Assembly (NCBI GenBank): GCA_036381125.1
Contig: DASVDK010000209.1
Span: forward strand, 1 to 13,500
Direction: 5' to 3'
DNA: 13,500 nucleotides
Source of the DNA: DASVDK01 sp036381125 [NCBI: Thermodesulfobacteriota bacterium]
GTDB taxonomy: Bacteria; DASVDK01
The notes under the pieces were generated by a model that saw only the letters and a program-made list of their open reading frames with translations, had not been told where the DNA came from and did no database searches. Position 1 is the stretch's first letter. Each line of letters starts with the position of its first letter. Both the position numbers and the translations under genes were made by a program. This document shows positions 1 to 11,410 of this stretch, piece by piece.

Positions 1-822
1 CCCCTCATCGTGCACCTGGCGAGCCCGGCGCAGATCGAGCGCTACGCCGACCGGGTCGACTCGCGGGCCCGCGCCCTGGTCGCGCGCTTCTGGCCCGGTC
101 CGCTCACGCTCGTCCTGCCGCGCCGCGTCGACGCCGCGGGCCGGCCGGTGATCCCCGACATCGTCACCTCGGGGCTCGACACGGTGGCGCTGCGGATGCC
201 CGACCACCCGGTGGCGCTGGCGCTCCTGGCCGAGGCGGGCCGTCCGGTGGCGGCCCCTTCGGCCAACCCGTTCGGGTACGTGAGCCCCACGTCGGCCGCT
301 CACGTCGTCGAGCAGCTCGGCGACGCCGTCGACCTCGTCCTCGACGGCGGCCCCTGCCGCGTGGGGGTCGAGTCGACTGTCGTGAGCCTCGCGGGGGAGC
401 GGCCGCGCCTGCTGCGTCCGGGCGGCGTGCCGCTCGAGGGGATCGAGTCGGTGATCGGGCCGGTCGAGGTCGCGGCGCCGTCGGCGAGGTCACCGGAGGC
501 GCCGGGGCAACTGCCGTCGCACTACGCGCCGCGGACGCCGCTCGTGCTCCTCGGAAGCCGGGACGACCCGGCGCGCCTCGCGCGCCGGAGACCGGACGAG
601 CGGGTGGGGCTCCTCGCCCTCGCGCCCGCGCCGGACGCCGCCCGCTTCGCCGCCGTCGAGACGCTCTCGGCCGACGGCGACCTGCGCGAGGCGGCGCAGC
701 ACCTCTTCGGCGCCCTGCGCCGGCTCGACGCCGCCGGCCTCGACCGCATCGTGGCCGAGCCCTGCCCGGAGGTCGGCCTCGGCCGGGCCATCATGGACCG
801 CCTCCGCCGCGCCTCCGCCTGA
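1..822 (+). CDS. L-threonylcarbamoyladenylate synthase, Sua5 type (5' end outside window)
   Basis: This enzyme makes threonylcarbamoyl-AMP from threonine, bicarbonate and ATP, the first step of the t6A37 modification of ANN-decoding tRNAs, in the cytoplasm. The frame is open from base 1, which begins inside the YrdC domain at PLIVHLAS, so the start and the N-terminal KRP-type nucleotide motif lie upstream. Visible family motifs are WPGPLTLVLP, APSANPFGYVSPTSA, GVESTVVSL and LLRPGGV. A linker reading PGQLPSHYAPRTP then leads into about 100 further residues ending LGRAIMDRLRRA. That linker plus C-terminal domain is characteristic of the long Sua5 form rather than the short TsaC. The 273 residues seen fit a full protein of roughly 320-350. 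It converges on the cytochrome gene at 915-2222, and the repeat cluster starts 2 nt after its stop. Family assignment is secure; Sua5 versus TsaC rests on the linker and C-terminal domain. Confidence 0.93.
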   Translation, partial: PLIVHLASPAQIERYADRVDSRARALVARFWPGPLTLVLPRRVDAAGRPVIPDIVTSGLDTVALRMPDHPVALALLAEAGRPVAAPSANPFGYVSPTSAAHVVEQLGDAVDLVLDGGPCRVGVESTVVSLAGERPRLLRPGGVPLEGIESVIGPVEVAAPSARSPEAPGQLPSHYAPRTPLVLLGSRDDPARLARRRPDERVGLLALAPAPDAARFAAVETLSADGDLREAAQHLFGALRRLDAAGLDRIVAEPCPEVGLGRAIMDRLRRASA

Positions 823-824
823 CC

Positions 825-901
825 GGGGTCAGGTCTTTCCATTTTCCAGGGGGTCAGGTCTTTCCATTTTCCAGCCCGGAGTACGTCGAGGCCTGACCCC
901 C
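825..901. repeat. REP-like repeat cluster: two direct units plus an inverted partial copy
   Basis: Two identical 24-bp units beginning GGGGTCAGGTCTTTCC lie at 825-848 and 850-873, offset by 25 bp. The segment CCTGACCCCC at 892-901 is the exact reverse complement of GGGGGTCAGG at 849-858, giving a 10-bp stem around a 33-nt loop. The cluster fills most of the gap between two convergent genes. It contains a TTTCCATTTT core that is AT-rich for this genome. Arrays with GGGGTCAGGTC ends are, from memory, common in intergenic regions of GC-rich environmental genomes and resemble REP elements mobilised by Y1 (RAYT/IS200-like) transposases. No transposase is present here, so that link is inference. 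The stem could also help end transcription from both sides, although there is no U-tract next to it. Confidence 0.8.
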
Positions 902-914
902 GTCACGCGGCTCG

Positions 915-2222
915 TCAGAGCGACTTGAGGAACTCCACGAGGTCGAGGACCTCGTCGTCGCGGAGCCCGAGACCGAACGTCCGGTCGTAGTGGTCGACCA
1001 CGTCGGCGAGGGTCGCGAAGCGGCCGTCGTGGTAGAAGCCGCCCTTCTGGTGCGAGAAGAGCCCCCGCAGCGGCGAGGTCCGGTAGCGGCCGTCGGGCGC
1101 GCGCTCCGCCTGGAACGCGTCGATCCCGATCTCCTCCGGCGTGTGGAGGTTCCACCCCGGCTCGGTGTAGAGCGGCGGCACGTGGCAGGTGGCGCAGCGC
1201 GCCTTGCCGGTGAAGAGCGCCTGGCCGCGTGAGGCGGCGTCCGCGTCGAAGCTCCCGCGGGGCGGCGTCGGCGCGGGGATGGCGAGCTGGTAGACGTGGA
1301 GCGCCGCGAGCTTGCCGGTGATCAGGTCCGGGTCGCTCCGCACGTCGGCGAACCCGGCCCGGGCGGCGATCGGGAACCGCGCCTCGTCCGCGAGCCGGGG
1401 ATCGAAGAACGTCCCTTTGCCGTGCATCTCGAGCGTCGCGACGAAGGCGTTCCAGTGCGTGACCGAGCCCCAGCCGGTCCAGGTGTGCAGGTTCACCCCG
1501 GCGAGGCCGAATGCCGGCGGGATCAGCGTCGCCGCGGACTTCCCGTCGGGACGGAACGCCTTGCCGTCGAGAACCAGCTCGGCGTCGAACTTCCCAGGCC
1601 CCCAGCTCCGCAGCACCGTCCGGACCGTCGACTCGTCGACCTCGAGGAGCGTCGCGAAGGCCTCGAGGTCGGGGGCGAGGGCGACGATCGCGCCGATGTC
1701 GAGGTCGCGGTTGGCCCACCCGTCGAGCCGGCGGCCGATCCCCGGCGCGAGCGAGTCGTCGACCGTCGAATGACAGAGGGCGCACTGGATCCCGATCGAC
1801 CTGAGCCCGCCGCCGTCGTCGAAGAAGCCGGTCACGCCGACGACGGCGTTCAGCCTGAGGAGGTCCAGCGTCGTCGCCGGCGCGTCGAGGTCGACGTTGC
1901 CCGCCTGGAGGCGGCGGACGAGGGGACGCGGGAGCGCCTCGGCGTCCACCTTCAGCCCGAGACCGAGGGCCGCGTTCGGGCCGAGGCCGGGGCCGACCCC
2001 CCCGAGCGCCTCGCCGGCGATCGCGCGGTGCAGCCCGAGCGTGTCGCCCCAGAAGGCCTCGTCGCCGAACGTGTCGAAGCGGAAGATCCGGCGCCCCTCC
2101 TCGACGAGGCGCCGGGCGTGACGGTCGACGGCGCGATCGTGCGGCGGGCCGAGGCCGGCATCGGCGCCGATCGACAGGGCGGCCAGCGCCGCGAGCAGCA
2201 CGACGGAGAGGGGGCGAGACAT
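915..2222 (-). CDS. Exported cytochrome c with two CXXCH heme motifs (diheme peroxidase/oxidoreductase-like)
   Basis: The 435-residue protein opens with a Sec-type signal peptide (residues 1 to about 22, hydrophobic LSVVLLAALAALSIGA), so it should act in the periplasm. Heme-binding motifs are C147-ALC-H151 and C343-ATC-H347. Around them are VGVTGFFDD, LAPGIGRRLDGWANRDLD, GLAGVNLHTWTGWGSVTHW and, near the end, a GGFYHDGRF segment like that of the diheme peroxidase/MauG superfamily. The first heme site is unusually far in, behind about 125 residues of conserved-looking non-heme sequence, unlike classical cytochrome c peroxidases, so peroxidase activity is not established. The ATG at 2222 is supported by an SD (AAGGAGGT, complement of 2227-2234) 4 nt upstream. 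It is the last gene of a three-gene operon and lies 31 nt after the cupredoxin gene, a plausible electron partner. It converges on the Sua5 gene. Confidence 0.85.
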   Translation of the reverse strand: MSRPLSVVLLAALAALSIGADAGLGPPHDRAVDRHARRLVEEGRRIFRFDTFGDEAFWGDTLGLHRAIAGEALGGVGPGLGPNAALGLGLKVDAEALPRPLVRRLQAGNVDLDAPATTLDLLRLNAVVGVTGFFDDGGGLRSIGIQCALCHSTVDDSLAPGIGRRLDGWANRDLDIGAIVALAPDLEAFATLLEVDESTVRTVLRSWGPGKFDAELVLDGKAFRPDGKSAATLIPPAFGLAGVNLHTWTGWGSVTHWNAFVATLEMHGKGTFFDPRLADEARFPIAARAGFADVRSDPDLITGKLAALHVYQLAIPAPTPPRGSFDADAASRGQALFTGKARCATCHVPPLYTEPGWNLHTPEEIGIDAFQAERAPDGRYRTSPLRGLFSHQKGGFYHDGRFATLADVVDHYDRTFGLGLRDDEVLDLVEFLKSL

Positions 2223-2253
2223 GGAGACCTCCTTCGGAGGCCGGTGCCTGGCT

Positions 2254-2640
2254 CTAGTCGGAACGTACGGTGATGCGACCGACCATCCCGGCCGCTTCGT
2301 GCGGCCGACAGAAGTAGTGGTAGGTGCCCGGGACGACGAGCGTGATCTCGAAGCGGTCGCCCGGGTTCACGAGGTAGCCGGAGTCCCAGGGGGTCGCGCC
2401 GGCCGGAATCCGGTCGGGGTACGCGGTGGTCGTGTGGACGTGGCGCTCGACGACCCAGCGCACCGTGGTCCCCGGCGAGATCGTCAGCTCGGCCGGATCG
2501 AACCAGACCCGGGCCCCCGACGCGTCGCCGGTCATCAGGACCTCGACCACCGGCCCGGCGGCGGCCGGCCGGGCGGACGCGGCCGCGAGGCCGGCGAGCA
2601 GAAGCCCGCCGGCCCCGATCAGTCTGCGGCGCGTCAGCAC
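2254..2640 (-). CDS. Plastocyanin-like type 1 copper protein (cupredoxin) with twin-arginine-type signal
   Basis: The predicted 128-residue protein begins at a GTG at 2640, 2 nt after the stop of the preceding gene. The frame stays open further upstream, but that extension overlaps the neighbour and has no signal peptide, whereas the GTG start puts LTRRRLIG directly before a hydrophobic stretch ending ARPAAA (about residue 28), a Tat-like export signal. No good SD is seen, so translational coupling is likely. The mature part has the cupredoxin signature: the first His at H69 (HVHTTTAYPDRIPAG; H67 is the alternative), then C111, H114 and M119 in YHYFCRPHEAAGMVG. The C-x2-H-x4-M spacing is that of plastocyanin and related blue-copper proteins. 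It should carry single electrons in the periplasm, probably to or from the cytochrome encoded next. Assignment to the plastocyanin/halocyanin-like group is firm; the partner is inferred. Confidence 0.88.
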   Translation of the reverse strand: MLTRRRLIGAGGLLLAGLAAASARPAAAGPVVEVLMTGDASGARVWFDPAELTISPGTTVRWVVERHVHTTTAYPDRIPAGATPWDSGYLVNPGDRFEITLVVPGTYHYFCRPHEAAGMVGRITVRSD

Positions 2641-2642
2641 GG

Positions 2643-3083
2643 CTACTTGCCGGCCACGCGCTGTTCCTGCGCCTTCGGGATGTGCCAGAGCACGATGTGG
2701 TAATGCGGCTTCTCCACTCCGGGGTGTCCGGCGTTGTAGACGAGGTCGACGTGGTCGACCTTCTCCTGCGCGGTGGCGAGGTTCTCGAACGCCTTGTGCG
2801 CCTGGAGGTCCTCGAGCGGGATCATGTAGATCGAGCTGACGAGACGCCCCTGCTTGTCGTAGGCCAGGAAGGGGCCGGCCGGCAACGTCTCCGGCTTTAC
2901 GTAGAGCGTCCCCATGCCCGGCAGGAAGTCGGGGAGGGGGACCAGCTCGCTCACCTTCTTGTACCCGTCGCCGGGAGGCGCCTTGCGGAGATCCTGGGCG
3001 GTCGCGGTACCGGTCGCGGTACCGGTTGCGAGGGCCAGTGCGGCGAGGGCCGCGAAAACGAAACCAGGTCGGATGCGGGCCAT
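2643..3083 (-). CDS. Secreted His-rich protein, DUF5602/TTHB210-like
   Basis: This 146-residue protein has a Sec-type signal peptide (hydrophobic residues 8-19, then a TGTATGTATA stretch to about residue 29) and is probably periplasmic. The mature part has no recognised enzyme motif. It contains PDFLPGMGTLYV (52-62), GPFLAYDKQGRLV, IYMIPLEDL, DHVDLVYNAGHPG (H111, H120) and PHYHIVLWHIP (H127, H129, H134). From memory this pattern fits the DUF5602 family typified by Thermus TTHB210, whose function is not known to me. The clustered histidines suggest, but do not prove, metal binding. The ATG at 3083 has a GGAGG SD (complement of 3090-3094) 6 nt upstream. It is the first gene of the operon with the cupredoxin (gap 2 nt) and cytochrome, and its promoter region carries the palindrome shared with the divergent regulator. 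Confidence 0.75.
   Translation of the reverse strand: MARIRPGFVFAALAALALATGTATGTATAQDLRKAPPGDGYKKVSELVPLPDFLPGMGTLYVKPETLPAGPFLAYDKQGRLVSSIYMIPLEDLQAHKAFENLATAQEKVDHVDLVYNAGHPGVEKPHYHIVLWHIPKAQEQRVAGK
3001..3024 (-). repeat. 12-bp perfect tandem duplication inside a signal-peptide coding region
   Basis: GTCGCGGTACCG occurs twice in a row on the plus strand and is followed by a partial third unit (GTTGCG). It encodes the repeated Thr-Gly-Thr-Ala run near the end of the signal peptide of the gene at 2643-3083. Being 12 bp long, gain or loss of a unit would keep the frame and only change the signal peptide length. Confidence 0.8.
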
Positions 3084-3134
3084 CGGTTCCCTCCGGTTCG
3101 ATTTTCGGGCGCGCGCTTGCGCCCGGCATCCGCT

Positions 3135-3163
3135 ACACTAGGCTAGAAGCGTTACTTGTGCAA
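3135..3163 (-). promoter_or_regulatory. Candidate sigma-70-type promoter for the DUF5602-cupredoxin-cytochrome operon
   Basis: Read on the minus strand, TTGCAC (complement of 3158-3163) is followed by 17 nt and TAGTGT (complement of 3135-3140). Each hexamer matches consensus at three of six positions, so it is a moderate candidate. The predicted start would fall near 3128, leaving a leader of about 45 nt before the ATG at 3083. The -35 overlaps the palindrome at 3152-3167, a position expected for repression. Confidence 0.45.
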
Positions 3164-3167
3164 GTAA
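3152..3167. promoter_or_regulatory. Palindromic operator candidate between regulator and exported redox operon
   Basis: TTACTTG TG CAAGTAA is a perfect 7-bp inverted repeat with a 2-nt centre. It lies in the 98-bp divergent gap, 14 nt before the regulator ATG and overlapping the candidate -35 of the minus-strand operon. It is conspicuously AT-rich for this genome. The likely ligand is the winged-helix protein encoded at 3182-3838, which would then control both itself and the operon; this is inferred from symmetry and position. Confidence 0.65.
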
Positions 3168-3181
3168 AAACTTTCTAAACT

Positions 3182-3838
3182 ATGCGGCGGCCGCCCGACC
3201 TCCCTTCGGGGACGAAGTACGACATCCTGAAACTCCTGATCCGACAGGAGCTTGCGGCCGACGACCTGGCCGCGAGCCTCGGGGTCAGCGGGGCGGCGGT
3301 CCGCCAGCACCTCGACACCCTGCGAGCCCTGGGACTCGTCGAGCGCCGAAAGGTCGTGACGCAGCCGTCGCGTCCGACCTACCTCTACCGGCTGTCGCCC
3401 GATGGGCAGCGAGCGTTCCCGAAGCGTTACGAGCTGTTGCTGGCGCTGGTGATCGAGTCGATCCTCGACCGGCACGGCGAGCGCGGGGTGGCCGAGGTCG
3501 TGGCCGCGGCCGCCGAGCGGCTCGCGGCGCGGGTGAAGGGGCGTTTCGCGTCGGCCGACGAGCGGCGGCGATGGGACCTCCTCCTCGGGTGGCTCGAGGA
3601 GGAGCTGGCCTGGCAGGCGGACGCGCGCGAGGAGGGGGACGGCTGGCGCCGGGTGGTGATCCACCAGTGCCCCTTCCAGGACGTCTCGCGGGACCACCCG
3701 GCCGTCTGCGGGGTCTTCTTCCGGACGCTCGTCGAGGCGCTCTACGGGGCCGTGCCGGTCGAGCACCGGCCCGAGCCGCCGCCGGCCTGCTGCTCGCTCA
3801 GGATCGCGGCGGCTCTTCCGCCATCGCGTCCAGCATGA
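3182..3838 (+). CDS. Winged-helix transcriptional regulator with SufR-like cysteine cluster
   Basis: This 218-residue protein has an N-terminal winged helix-turn-helix at about 11-80 (DILKLLIRQELAADDLAASL, VSGAAVRQHLDTLRALGLVE, then a wing with PTYLYRLSPDG). Its C-terminal region has cysteines at C163, C176, C203 and C204. The segment HQCPFQDVSRDHPAVC gives the C-x12-C spacing of the SufR-type iron-sulfur repressors, and EHRPEPPPACCSLRI sits where that family has its final cysteine. A third SufR cysteine expected about 14 residues after C176 is absent, while a vicinal CC pair is present, so the ligand set is unusual. It probably senses redox state, iron-sulfur status or a metal. No SD precedes the ATG, so initiation may be leaderless or weak. 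It is divergent from the redox operon, and its last 41 bp overlap the end of the convergent gene at 3798-4139. Family certainty is good; the sensed signal is inference. Confidence 0.82.
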   Translation: MRRPPDLPSGTKYDILKLLIRQELAADDLAASLGVSGAAVRQHLDTLRALGLVERRKVVTQPSRPTYLYRLSPDGQRAFPKRYELLLALVIESILDRHGERGVAEVVAAAAERLAARVKGRFASADERRRWDLLLGWLEEELAWQADAREEGDGWRRVVIHQCPFQDVSRDHPAVCGVFFRTLVEALYGAVPVEHRPEPPPACCSLRIAAALPPSRPA

Positions 3839-4139
3839 CGGTCGCGTGCGCGTAGGCGCCGCCCGCGCGCATCTCGGCCGCCACCCAGACCGCTTCCATC
3901 AGCTCCTCGGGGGTCGCCCCGGCGCGGCGCGCGAGCTTCGTGTGGCCGCGGATGCAGTAGGGGCACTGCGTCACGTGGGCGACCGCCACGGCGATGAGCT
4001 GCTTGGTCTTGGCCGGCAGGGCCCCGTCGGCGAAGACCTCCTTCTGGAACGCCTCCCAGGCCGCGTGCGTCTTCGGGGCGAGCGCCTTGCGGCGCTCGGA
4101 GAGCTCGCGGGTGGTCGGCGGCACCATCTCCCTCGGCAT
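3798..4139 (-). CDS. Carboxymuconolactone decarboxylase / AhpD-like protein
   Basis: The 113-residue all-helical protein matches the small CMD family in length. The AhpD-type core reads AVAHVTQCPYCIRGHTKLAR, giving C59-x2-C62-x3-H66, the redox-active dithiol plus histidine used by alkylhydroperoxidase D-like members. The family also includes gamma-carboxymuconolactone decarboxylases, but presence of both cysteines favours a peroxidase-like or thiol-dependent role. The ATG at 4139 is chosen because GAGGAGT (complement of 4146-4152) lies 6 nt upstream; a second ATG four codons in lacks this spacing. The gene starts 11 nt after the stop of the M20 peptidase gene, so the two are probably cotranscribed. 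Its 3' end overlaps the convergent regulator gene by 41 bp. Confidence 0.9.
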   Translation of the reverse strand: MPREMVPPTTRELSERRKALAPKTHAAWEAFQKEVFADGALPAKTKQLIAVAVAHVTQCPYCIRGHTKLARRAGATPEELMEAVWVAAEMRAGGAYAHATVMLDAMAEEPPRS

Positions 4140-4150
4140 CGTGCCACTCC

Positions 4151-5527
4151 TCAGCGGGGCAGCGTCGCCAGGCGCGAGAAGTACCGTGCAAAGGCGGCGA
4201 TCCCGCCCGACGCCTGCTCCCAGTCGTAGTGCTCGTTGGGTGCGTGGTAACCATGCTCGGGCAGCGAGAGCCCGAGGAAGAGGACCGGCGCCCCGAGCAC
4301 CCGCTCCATCGTAGGGACGGCGCCGATCGAGCCGCCTTCGCGCGTGAAGGCCGGCGCCGCGCCGAAGGCGAACCGGTACGCGTCGCGCACGGCGTCGGCC
4401 AGGGGACCGGTCGTCACCCCCTTGAACGGCTCGAGGCCGTGCCCCGGGTGCACCTGGACGCCCGGGAAGCGGCTGCGGATGAACTCCGTCACCCGGGCCA
4501 TCGTCCGCGCCGTCGTCATGTTCGGCACGATGCGGCAGGAGCACTTCACCTCGGCCCGCGGCGGCACGATCGCCTTGACCCCCGGTCCCGTGTACCCGCC
4601 CACGACCCCGTGGACCTCGAAGGTCGGACGGGCCCAGATGCGGCGCATGACCTCGAGCGCGTCGGTCGTCCGGAGCGACGAGAGCCCGTGGTCCCGCATG
4701 AAGGTCTCGACCGAGAACCCCGAGGCGAGGAAGTCGCGGGCGTCGGCCTCCGAGAGCGGCTCGACCTCGTCGTAGAAGCCGGGGATCAGGACCTCGCCGG
4801 TCCGGCCGTCGACACAGGCGGCCACGACCTGCATCAGCTCGGCGATCGGGTTGCGCGCCGCGCCCCCTACCATGCCCGAGTGGGCGTCGGTCTCGGCCAC
4901 CTCCAGCGTGAGCCGGAAGGTCTGCATCCCTCGCAGGCCGGCCGGGCTGCTCGGCTTGCCCCGTGTGGTCCAGACCGTGTCGGAGACGACGACGCTGTCG
5001 GTGGCGAGCCGCTCCCGGTAGCGGGTGACGGCGGCCTCGAAGTGGGGGCTGCCGATCTCCTCCTCGAACTCCCACAGGAAGGCGATGTTGATCGGCACGC
5101 CGGCCTCGCGGGCGGCCAGCGCCCCGAGGAGCGCCGTCAAGGCCGGCCCCTTGTCGTCCGTGGCGCCGCGGCCGTAGTAGCGGTCGCCCTGCGTCGTGAG
5201 CCGGAAGGGGTCGGTCCTCCAGGCGTCGCCGTCGGCCGGCTGGACGTCCATGTGGTTGTAGAGCGTGACCGTCGGCCAGGCCGGATCGCCGGGCAGCCGC
5301 CCGTGGACCAGCGGGTGCCCGCCGGTCTCGAGCACCTCCGCCGCGGCGCCGACCGCCGCCAGCCGGGCGGCCGCCGCCTCCGCCCCGCGGCGCACGTCGG
5401 CCGCGCGCGCCGGATCGGCCGAGACGGTGGGGATGCCGACCAGCTCCGCGAGCCAGCGCTCGAACTCCTCCCGGTGCGACGCCGCGTAGGCGGCCAGCGC
5501 CTCGCGGCTCAGGCGACGCTCGTCCAC
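4151..5527 (-). CDS. M20 family metallodipeptidase (CNDP2/PepV-like)
   Basis: This is a two-zinc aminoacylase-fold peptidase, probably cytoplasmic, that hydrolyses dipeptides or related N-acyl amino acids. Counting from the GTG at 5527, the 458 residues contain H92-x-D94 in LYNHMDVQP, D124 in GRGATDDKG, the catalytic and metal glutamates E156 and E157 in FEEEIGS, D183 in VVSDTVW and the late histidine H428 in YHAPNEH. All expected ligands are present and the length is normal. The middle part (about 195-320, GLRGMQTFRLTLEVAETDAH) is the lid/dimerisation domain. An ATG at 5596 would add 23 residues without family similarity. The GTG has AGGAGG (complement of 5533-5538) 5 nt upstream and is preferred. 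It is followed 11 nt later by the AhpD-like gene and is divergent from the gene at 5626. The exact substrate cannot be read from sequence. Confidence 0.92.
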   Translation of the reverse strand: MDERRLSREALAAYAASHREEFERWLAELVGIPTVSADPARAADVRRGAEAAAARLAAVGAAAEVLETGGHPLVHGRLPGDPAWPTVTLYNHMDVQPADGDAWRTDPFRLTTQGDRYYGRGATDDKGPALTALLGALAAREAGVPINIAFLWEFEEEIGSPHFEAAVTRYRERLATDSVVVSDTVWTTRGKPSSPAGLRGMQTFRLTLEVAETDAHSGMVGGAARNPIAELMQVVAACVDGRTGEVLIPGFYDEVEPLSEADARDFLASGFSVETFMRDHGLSSLRTTDALEVMRRIWARPTFEVHGVVGGYTGPGVKAIVPPRAEVKCSCRIVPNMTTARTMARVTEFIRSRFPGVQVHPGHGLEPFKGVTTGPLADAVRDAYRFAFGAAPAFTREGGSIGAVPTMERVLGAPVLFLGLSLPEHGYHAPNEHYDWEQASGGIAAFARYFSRLATLPR

Positions 5528-11207: not shown

Positions 11208-11211
11208 CGGC

Positions 11212-11271
11212 GGCGTCGGGGGGCCCGTCTCCGGTGGCCGGCCGCCCGGGGGGCGCGTGAGGCCCCCCGAC
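11212..11271. repeat. 60-bp hairpin repeat, copy 1
   Basis: This copy is identical over all 60 bases to 11337-11396, with a 125-bp offset. Inside it TCGGGGGGCC (11216-11225) and GGCCCCCCGA (11261-11270) form a perfect 10-bp stem enclosing 35 nt that itself contains GGCCGGCC. It begins 4 nt after the pgpA stop codon. There is no T-run, so it is not a standard intrinsic terminator; it looks like a REP/BIME-type palindromic unit. Confidence 0.88.
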
Positions 11272-11336
11272 GGAGCGGGGCGGCGCGCCGGCCTCGGTGG
11301 CGAGCGGCCCGGCTGTGCCGGGGCGCGAAGCGGGGG

Positions 11337-11396
11337 GGCGTCGGGGGGCCCGTCTCCGGTGGCCGGCCGCCCGGGGGGCGCGTGAGGCCCCCCGAC
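11337..11396. repeat. 60-bp hairpin repeat, copy 2
   Basis: This is the second identical copy, with the same 10-bp stem at 11341-11350 and 11386-11395. It ends 14 nt before the cinA ATG and 4 nt before its SD, so the structure could affect cinA translation. The 65 bp between the two copies (11272-11336) are G/C-rich and show no further copy of the unit. Confidence 0.88.
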
Positions 11397-11410
11397 TGTG
11401 AAGGACCGCC

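Follow-up and report, generated by a model that had tools for sequence, protein, structure and literature searches.

A recurring DUF5602-electron carrier gene pair in a putative regulated periplasmic redox locus of a Thermodesulfobacteriota bacterium

Gene content of the locus

We analysed a 13,500-nt stretch of DNA (hereafter, the window) from contig DASVDK010000209.1 of a Thermodesulfobacteriota bacterium, in which a three-gene operon and its neighbouring regulator occupy positions 915-3838. The operon lies on the reverse strand and encodes a protein of the DUF5602 family, a plastocyanin-like cupredoxin and a cytochrome with two CxxCH motifs. Divergent from it stands a winged helix-turn-helix (wHTH) regulator with a cluster of cysteine and histidine residues (Table 1). 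The gene coordinates leave gaps of 2 nt between the DUF5602 and cupredoxin genes and of 31 nt between the cupredoxin and cytochrome genes. Together with the signal sequences, these values bear out an earlier proposal made from this DNA alone (the original prediction), according to which three consecutive exported proteins are packed into one operon. The 98-nt intergenic region between the regulator and the DUF5602 gene has a G+C content of 0.54, compared with 0.74 for the window, and contains an inverted repeat, TTACTTG-TG-CAAGTAA. This repeat had been described as a perfect palindrome, which is true of its 7-nt arms, but not of the TG centre, which is not itself symmetric.

Table 1. Features in and beside the DUF5602 operon (window coordinates)
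Feature	Position	Strand	Remarks
Exported di-heme c-type cytochrome	915..2222	-	435 aa; related in its C-terminal part to cytochrome c peroxidase/MauG of bacteria
Plastocyanin-like cupredoxin	2254..2640	-	128 aa; GTG start at 2640; N-terminus LTRRRLIG, twin-arginine-type
Exported DUF5602/TTHB210-like protein	2643..3083	-	146 aa; H111, H120, H127, H129 conserved
Inverted repeat TTACTTG-TG-CAAGTAA, putative operator of the regulator gene and the operon	3152..3167		Core recurs with 1 mismatch at L132 and 3 mismatches at L127
wHTH regulator with C-terminal Cys3His site	3182..3838	+	218 aa; HTH_5
AhpD/carboxymuconolactone-decarboxylase-type protein, possible accessory	3798..4139	-	Convergent with regulator; PF02627 8e-24, ahpD_dom 9e-23

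The DUF5602 protein and its relatives

The DUF5602 protein scored 28.3 bits against PF18197, above the gathering cut-off of 26.6, and matched the structure of TTHB210 from Thermus thermophilus HB8, a member of the same family, over 95 residues (PDB 3vg8, E 1.1e-25). The PDB entry lists 10 chains, and TTHB210 is a ring oligomer. All 97 family sequences (profile score >90, duplicates removed, window protein included) have H120 and H127; H129 occurs in 94 and H111 in 91. Other conserved residues are W133 (90/97), Y75 (94/97) and Y86 (95/97). The motif HPGxxxPHxH is conserved in the family alignment and present in the window protein. The pattern of conserved histidines suggests a metal site. The original prediction presented DUF5602 as a family without a known role. 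We likewise found no open-access paper assigning a role to TTHB210 or PF18197, in a search from which subscription journals were mostly absent, but the family does have a solved structure.

A genome scan with an 11-row DUF5602 alignment yielded 283 confirmed relatives, of which the best 80 were kept as loci; 28 of these are from Microvirga, which makes the set uneven and weighted towards close relatives. At 71 of the 80 loci a cupredoxin gene lies directly downstream of DUF5602 on the same strand. Eight others (L018, L029, L045, L047, L052, L060, L063, L065) have in its place a gene for a protein resembling high-potential iron-sulfur proteins (HiPIP), and L054 was the single locus where neither was found. 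A carrier gene thus directly follows DUF5602 at 79 of 80 loci. The HiPIP-like protein of L018 matched PioC (E 7e-12) and fell below the Pfam HIPIP cut-off (13.8 vs 22 bits); the other seven were assigned by membership of its BLAST cluster, and the L045 frame diverges from the family after the first cysteine. A profile built from the cupredoxins adjoining DUF5602 found no second match elsewhere in 767 kb of flanking sequence, although it is selective for this subfamily and could miss other cupredoxins.

The pairing is also found on plasmids. A plasmid protein search for DUF5602 returned 34 records, and ten stretches were read: in seven (L001-L004, L008-L010) an intact cupredoxin gene directly follows DUF5602, in L005 a truncated cupredoxin frame lies there beside an insertion sequence element, and the two Thermus stretches have no cupredoxin after DUF5602. 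Searches of whole phyla gave sparser results. In the phylum of G002 (Methylomirabilota), DUF5602-like matches at E <= 1e-5 occurred in 13 of 95 genomes, mostly weak, with four below 1e-20; in that of G003 (ANGP1) DUF5602 was present in 3 of 43 genomes, one being the query locus's own; and in that of G005 (a Syntrophaceae metagenome-assembled genome) the only occurrence among 198 genomes was again the query locus's own. No cupredoxin of this subfamily was found in the stretches examined around DUF5602 in L205 and L206, both from the phylum of G003. Many of the weak matches in the Methylomirabilota look by eye like BON-domain proteins that end in a DUF5602-like tail. Two frames there (L114:820-1788 and L115:1237-1887) are BON-domain-like with a divergent DUF5602-like C-terminal part, the BON domain having been checked with Pfam in L114 only.

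The DUF5602-carrier pairing recurs across several bacterial phyla. Two unrelated one-electron carriers have been exchanged for each other beside DUF5602, and therefore redox work of this protein is supported. The swap between an iron-sulfur (Fe-S) and a copper carrier is, in our view, the strongest reason to assign DUF5602 a part in electron transfer. A joint function of DUF5602 with its electron carrier is strongly supported by this gene order.

The gene for TTHB210 itself is divergent from a pair of sigma-factor and anti-sigma genes, named as the sigE-TTHB212 operon in an excerpt of PMC4153023. Unlike the window, the TTHB210 locus lacks a cupredoxin or SufR-like regulator next to this gene, and the di-heme protein about 2.6 kb away (DHOR) belongs to another family than the window cytochrome.

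The window cupredoxin

The carrier in the window matched PF00127 (E 4e-15, 56.4 bits vs a cut-off of 21.2), and its type-1 copper ligands H69, C111, H114 and M119 are invariant in eight aligned cupredoxin rows. It is 48-53% identical to seven DUF5602-adjoining cupredoxins on alphaproteobacterial plasmids. Plastocyanin proper (TIGR02656) was rejected, the score of 67 bits being below the equivalog cut-off of 87.85.

Identity and distribution of the regulator

The candidate sensing site of the regulator reads C163-X12-C176-X18-H195-X7-C203, with an extra C204 and with H195 in the one ligand position not taken by a cysteine. The best NCBIfam match was SufR (TIGR02702), at 60 bits against a cut-off of 178.8. 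The cluster motif of SufR is CX12CX13CX14C. Both proteins share an ArsR-type wHTH domain and the CX12C pair, whereas the later ligand spacing differs and the window protein has histidine in third position. SufR represses suf operons; the window regulator stands beside exported redox genes, with DUF5602 as partner and no suf gene. Score, ligand spacing and gene context together rule out SufR proper. The "SufR-like" cysteine-cluster regulator originally proposed thus keeps its cluster and its nearest match, but is not SufR by the curated cut-off. Among 52 regulators, 45 show the CX12C pair followed by a further cysteine or histidine and a cysteine at near-constant spacing, and seven misfit or are cut.

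A structural model of the regulator (predicted local distance difference test score, pLDDT, 82.9) matched wHTH proteins in Foldseek. Chains of TRAPP subunits (6aq3, 7b6d) were weak matches at E ~1e-3, ranked among and below wHTH proteins; their template modelling scores were 0.37-0.39 relative to the model and 0.44-0.47 relative to the target. According to passages of PMC12343034, ArnR has a TRAPPC3-like sensory domain with three essential cysteines and a conserved nearby histidine; it holds a [4Fe-4S] cluster, and nitric oxide abolishes its DNA binding. With ArnR and Rv2621c the window regulator has in common a wHTH domain and a set of three cysteines with a histidine, and the weak TRAPP matches point to a possible TRAPPC3-like domain as well, in a comparison of architecture and not of sequence. 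Unlike the window regulator, ArnR acts as a repressor of the Corynebacterium nar and hmp genes. The window regulator is not SufR, and in its architecture it appears closer to an ArnR/SufR-like type. Fe-S sensing by it is therefore likely.

Regulators within 700 nt of the DUF5602-carrier pair vary between the 80 loci: 48 have a member of an extracytoplasmic function (ECF) sigma-factor cluster, seven a PAS-LuxR protein, three a SufR-like protein and 22 none of these. Pfam checks confirmed the sigma factor in L010 and L067 and PAS-LuxR in L032. The PAS-LuxR gene adjoins DUF5602 in L020, L032, L048, L050, L051, L059 and L066, on the opposite strand except in L059. A SufR-like gene lies directly beside DUF5602 in the window and in L023, L046, L127 and L132, beside the cupredoxin gene in L057 and beyond the cytochrome gene in L131; L023, L046 and L057 come from the scan of 80, and L127, L131 and L132 from the phylum searches. 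The regulators at L127 and L132 are orthologues of the window protein (55% and 47% identical) and likewise divergent from DUF5602-cupredoxin. L127 belongs to G327, a genome of the same phylum as G002 (the source of L076), which carries a second DUF5602 copy (L128) downstream of a small gene. The start of that small gene resembles the start of a gene between a sigma-like gene and DUF5602 in L126.

We built a tree of 50 regulators (profile score >60, length >=190; fragments and duplicates dropped, L131 added by hand), which with midpoint rooting split 25/25 with support 99/91. The window regulator's clade contains all seven DUF5602-linked rows, 12 of the 13 cytochrome-linked rows and six others; the one cytochrome-linked row on the opposite side is from L209, a locus with two regulators. 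Four of the 13 (L207, L209 twice, L211) come from loci picked because both genes had already been seen close together, and five, including these four, from one additional fetch. Genes flanking the six other members include those for Rieske/FAD reductases (L149 and L167, Pfam-checked), DUF4142 proteins (L155, L167, L172) and a cupredoxin (L172). DUF4142-like genes beside same-clade regulators (L152, L155, L163, L167 and L172; Pfam-checked in L155, L167 and L172) form another candidate periplasmic redox set.

A candidate operator

The 7 + 2 + 7 repeat is its own only match in the window at up to 3 mismatches, with 0.01 expected. Arms of at least 7 nt with a spacer of up to 6 nt arose in 136 of 5000 mononucleotide shuffles of the intergenic stretch, which makes the repeat by itself modest evidence; that it is conserved counts for more. 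The core ACTTGTGCAAGT recurs with 1 mismatch on the reverse strand of the 108-nt stretch upstream of the L132 regulator, with no other such match in the 14 kb of this locus and at a level reached by 2 of 5000 shuffles. At L127 it recurs with 3 mismatches in a 62-nt stretch chosen by eye, as in 221 of 5000 shuffles. A chance palindrome, which the shuffles of the intergenic stretch alone were insufficient to reject, is disfavoured by the L132 match. We infer that the recurring core fits an autoregulating repressor.

The di-heme cytochrome

The two CxxCH motifs of the cytochrome are at residues 147 and 343, and its full-length relatives are 50-66% identical. The cytochrome exceeded no Pfam cut-off (PF03150, 14.1 bits vs 25.6). 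A seven-row profile against PDB gave cytochrome c peroxidases as best matches (8.7e-8 and 2e-7), in the C-terminal part only, where it also matched the hydrazine synthase gamma subunit. Matches to the NCBIfam models MauG (41.7 bits, cut-off 443.85, over 87 residues) and MbnH (22.1 bits, cut-off 362.85) are likewise confined to the C-terminal part.

Two known arrangements are comparable. Electron donation by pseudoazurin or cupredoxin to bacterial cytochrome c peroxidase is known, to judge from a title cited in PMC6274584. As in the window, this pairs a di-heme protein that has a related C-terminal heme domain with a cupredoxin; unlike a di-heme peroxidase, the window cytochrome aligns over the C-terminal part only and below the PF03150 cut-off. 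The second arrangement is the mau cluster, in which the di-heme enzyme MauG occurs with the cupredoxin amicyanin. The window resembles it in combining a di-heme protein with a cupredoxin and differs in that no methylamine dehydrogenase gene is among the operon genes and the MauG match is so short.

The cytochrome occurs in 40 of 249 genomes (49 matches) of the phylum of G001, the Gemmatimonadetes. In the same genomes a six-row regulator profile gave at least 168 matches at E <= 1e-17 in at least 118 genomes. Of the 49 cytochrome matches, at least 16 lie no more than 1.5 kb from a regulator of this kind, where 0.03 would be expected for genomes of an assumed 3.8 Mb; 12 candidates were scored per genome, both the count and the regulator density are lower bounds, and one of the 16 (G014) is a row of the search profile itself. 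In a separate count of the 30 best cytochrome loci, ten had a regulator nearby. DUF5602 and the cytochrome are both present in 9 of the 13 DUF5602 genomes of this phylum (one of which, G033, has a fragment only), compared with an expectation of 2.1 (hypergeometric 1.4e-5, without correction for kinship). Within the phylum, which also includes G188 and G214, the cytochrome of L050 (in G001) lies 1.9 kb from DUF5602-cupredoxin. Besides the window, G214 (L131) has all four genes together, in a different order: the regulator is followed by cytochrome-DUF5602-cupredoxin. Some lineages have added the cytochrome, often with a regulator of the same clade as the window's. A constant third partner of DUF5602 it cannot be, with linkage at one of 80 loci.

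A regulated redox unit and its alternatives

In broad terms the earlier idea of a regulated redox module holds, and the core of the module is DUF5602 with its carrier. The joint unit then envisaged is strongly supported for these two components (71/80 with cupredoxin, 8/80 with the HiPIP-like protein), but not for the cytochrome as a general component; similarly, the expected co-occurrence of DUF5602 with a plastocyanin-like gene was found, but that with a SufR-like regulator is rare. Control of the operon by the cysteine-cluster regulator is supported by the clade, the nearness to cytochromes and the conserved operator core, although this protein is only one of several regulators used.

We regard as somewhat more probable than its opposite that the locus is a divergent, stress-inducible periplasmic electron-transfer unit for oxidant removal under the control of an Fe-S-type repressor; the regulator's dimeric state, cluster binding and repression are inferences, as are the direction of electron flow, the substrate and the signal. 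The regulator would be a wHTH dimer whose TRAPPC3-like C-terminal domain carries the Cys3His site, probably with an Fe-S cluster. Bound to the inverted repeat, it would repress its own gene and the operon until an oxidant or nitric oxide damages the cluster and the protein is released. DUF5602, as an exported His-site protein, may then have a redox-active metal or an oxidant as its substrate or partner, with the type-1 copper cupredoxin passing single electrons to or from DUF5602. In this lineage the peroxidase-related di-heme cytochrome would exchange electrons with the same cupredoxin, and the net role of the unit would be periplasmic oxidant removal.

Several observations weigh against this scheme. 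A consensus scan of positions 800-4300 found no sigma-70 promoter. No carrier gene adjoins DUF5602 of Thermus HB8, and a SufR-like regulator is near only 3 of 80 DUF5602 loci. Beyond L127 and L132 no further orthologue of the window regulator was found with a three-row profile: among 94 genomes of the phylum of G327 the one match at E <= 1e-20 (388.6 bits) was the query row, as was the one strong match (374.1 bits, the rest from 108.5 bits down) among 249 genomes of the phylum of G188. The L127 core match could be chance (4% of shuffles), and the inverted repeat common to L023 and L046 between regulator and DUF5602 differs from the window's. For the cytochrome, an AlphaFold model with two sequences as input had a pLDDT of 32 and leaves the fold unproven. 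It was linked to one of the 80 DUF5602 loci of the genome scan and absent from the stretches examined of the other 79, and 31 of the 40 cytochrome genomes have no DUF5602 match.

The histidine triad of DUF5602 and the copper ligands of the cupredoxin could also mean copper handling, with both proteins binding or buffering periplasmic copper and the regulator sensing copper indirectly via damage to its Fe-S cluster. That an Fe-S protein replaces the copper protein at eight loci argues against this, as does the lack of a copper transporter or multicopper oxidase among the eight window proteins scanned; we consider copper handling unlikely. Equally unlikely is an alternative respiratory branch, in which electrons from the cupredoxin and the cytochrome would go to a terminal oxidase or an enzyme of denitrification, with DUF5602 as a scaffold or docking factor. 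It would account for cbb3 oxidase genes near DUF5602 on Thioclava and Roseibium plasmids and for the truncated haemoglobin encoded near it on a plasmid of Mesorhizobium. It would also fit two clusters named by eye: one resembling cytochrome oxidase subunit I, 1.9-5.4 kb from DUF5602 at nine of 80 loci, eight of them Microvirga (L017, L022, L036, L037, L039, L041, L070, L075, L084), and one with Rieske/FAD reductase-like proteins, within 4.2 kb at seven. However, no such gene directly adjoins the pair across a wide range of genera, as the carrier does at 79 of 80 loci, and the commonest nearby regulator is a sigma factor (48/80).

In the mau system, amicyanin is an electron acceptor. By analogy, the weak C-terminal MauG and MbnH matches and the high conservation of W133, Y75 and Y86 could reflect a maturation pair, in which the di-heme protein oxidises such residues of DUF5602 into a protein-derived cofactor and the cupredoxin accepts the electrons; with 79 of 80 DUF5602 loci lacking a linked cytochrome in the stretches examined and most cytochrome genomes lacking DUF5602, this is very improbable. 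Least credible of all is an accidental neighbourhood of unrelated functions, which would agree with cytochrome and regulator differing between loci, but not with the constancy of the carrier or the recurrence of the four-gene set in another order in G214.

Neighbouring genes and repeats

Relatives of the AhpD-type protein (E <1e-20) occur in the flanks of 11 of the 80 DUF5602 loci, eight of them Microvirga. Genes of this type directly follow the cupredoxin in L034 (7062-7547) and L133 (10975-11463), and one is in frame after a DUF5602 fragment in L109 (1555-2256). Downstream of the operon the window has an exact tandem pair of the 25-nt unit GGGGTCAGGTCTTTCCATTTTCCAG at 825-874. A 76-nt G+C-rich direct repeat, 91% identical between its copies, lies at 11209-11284 and 11334-11409, flanked by genes that we take to be pgpA-like and cinA-like. 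Near full-length CinA-like matches were no more than 29-44% identical across the 15 genomes or records searched.

Implications for the DUF5602 family

More broadly, and tentatively, at a little under even chance, we propose that DUF5602 represents a new type of periplasmic redox protein with a His site, working with a one-electron carrier of its own, a role that the unrelated cupredoxin or HiPIP would fill interchangeably. Each lineage would place the pair under its own stress sensor, whether an ECF sigma factor, a PAS-LuxR protein or a member of a SufR/ArnR-like clade of Fe-S repressors that has specialised in periplasmic redox genes, and the window would be the version to which a di-heme peroxidase-like cytochrome was added. 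A family with a solved structure and no described role found thereby gains a testable partner and pathway. The exchange of cupredoxin and HiPIP beside DUF5602 amounts to a natural experiment in favour of electron transfer, and the regulator clade accompanying periplasmic redox genes, with its predicted operator, offers a direct handle on the signal that is sensed.

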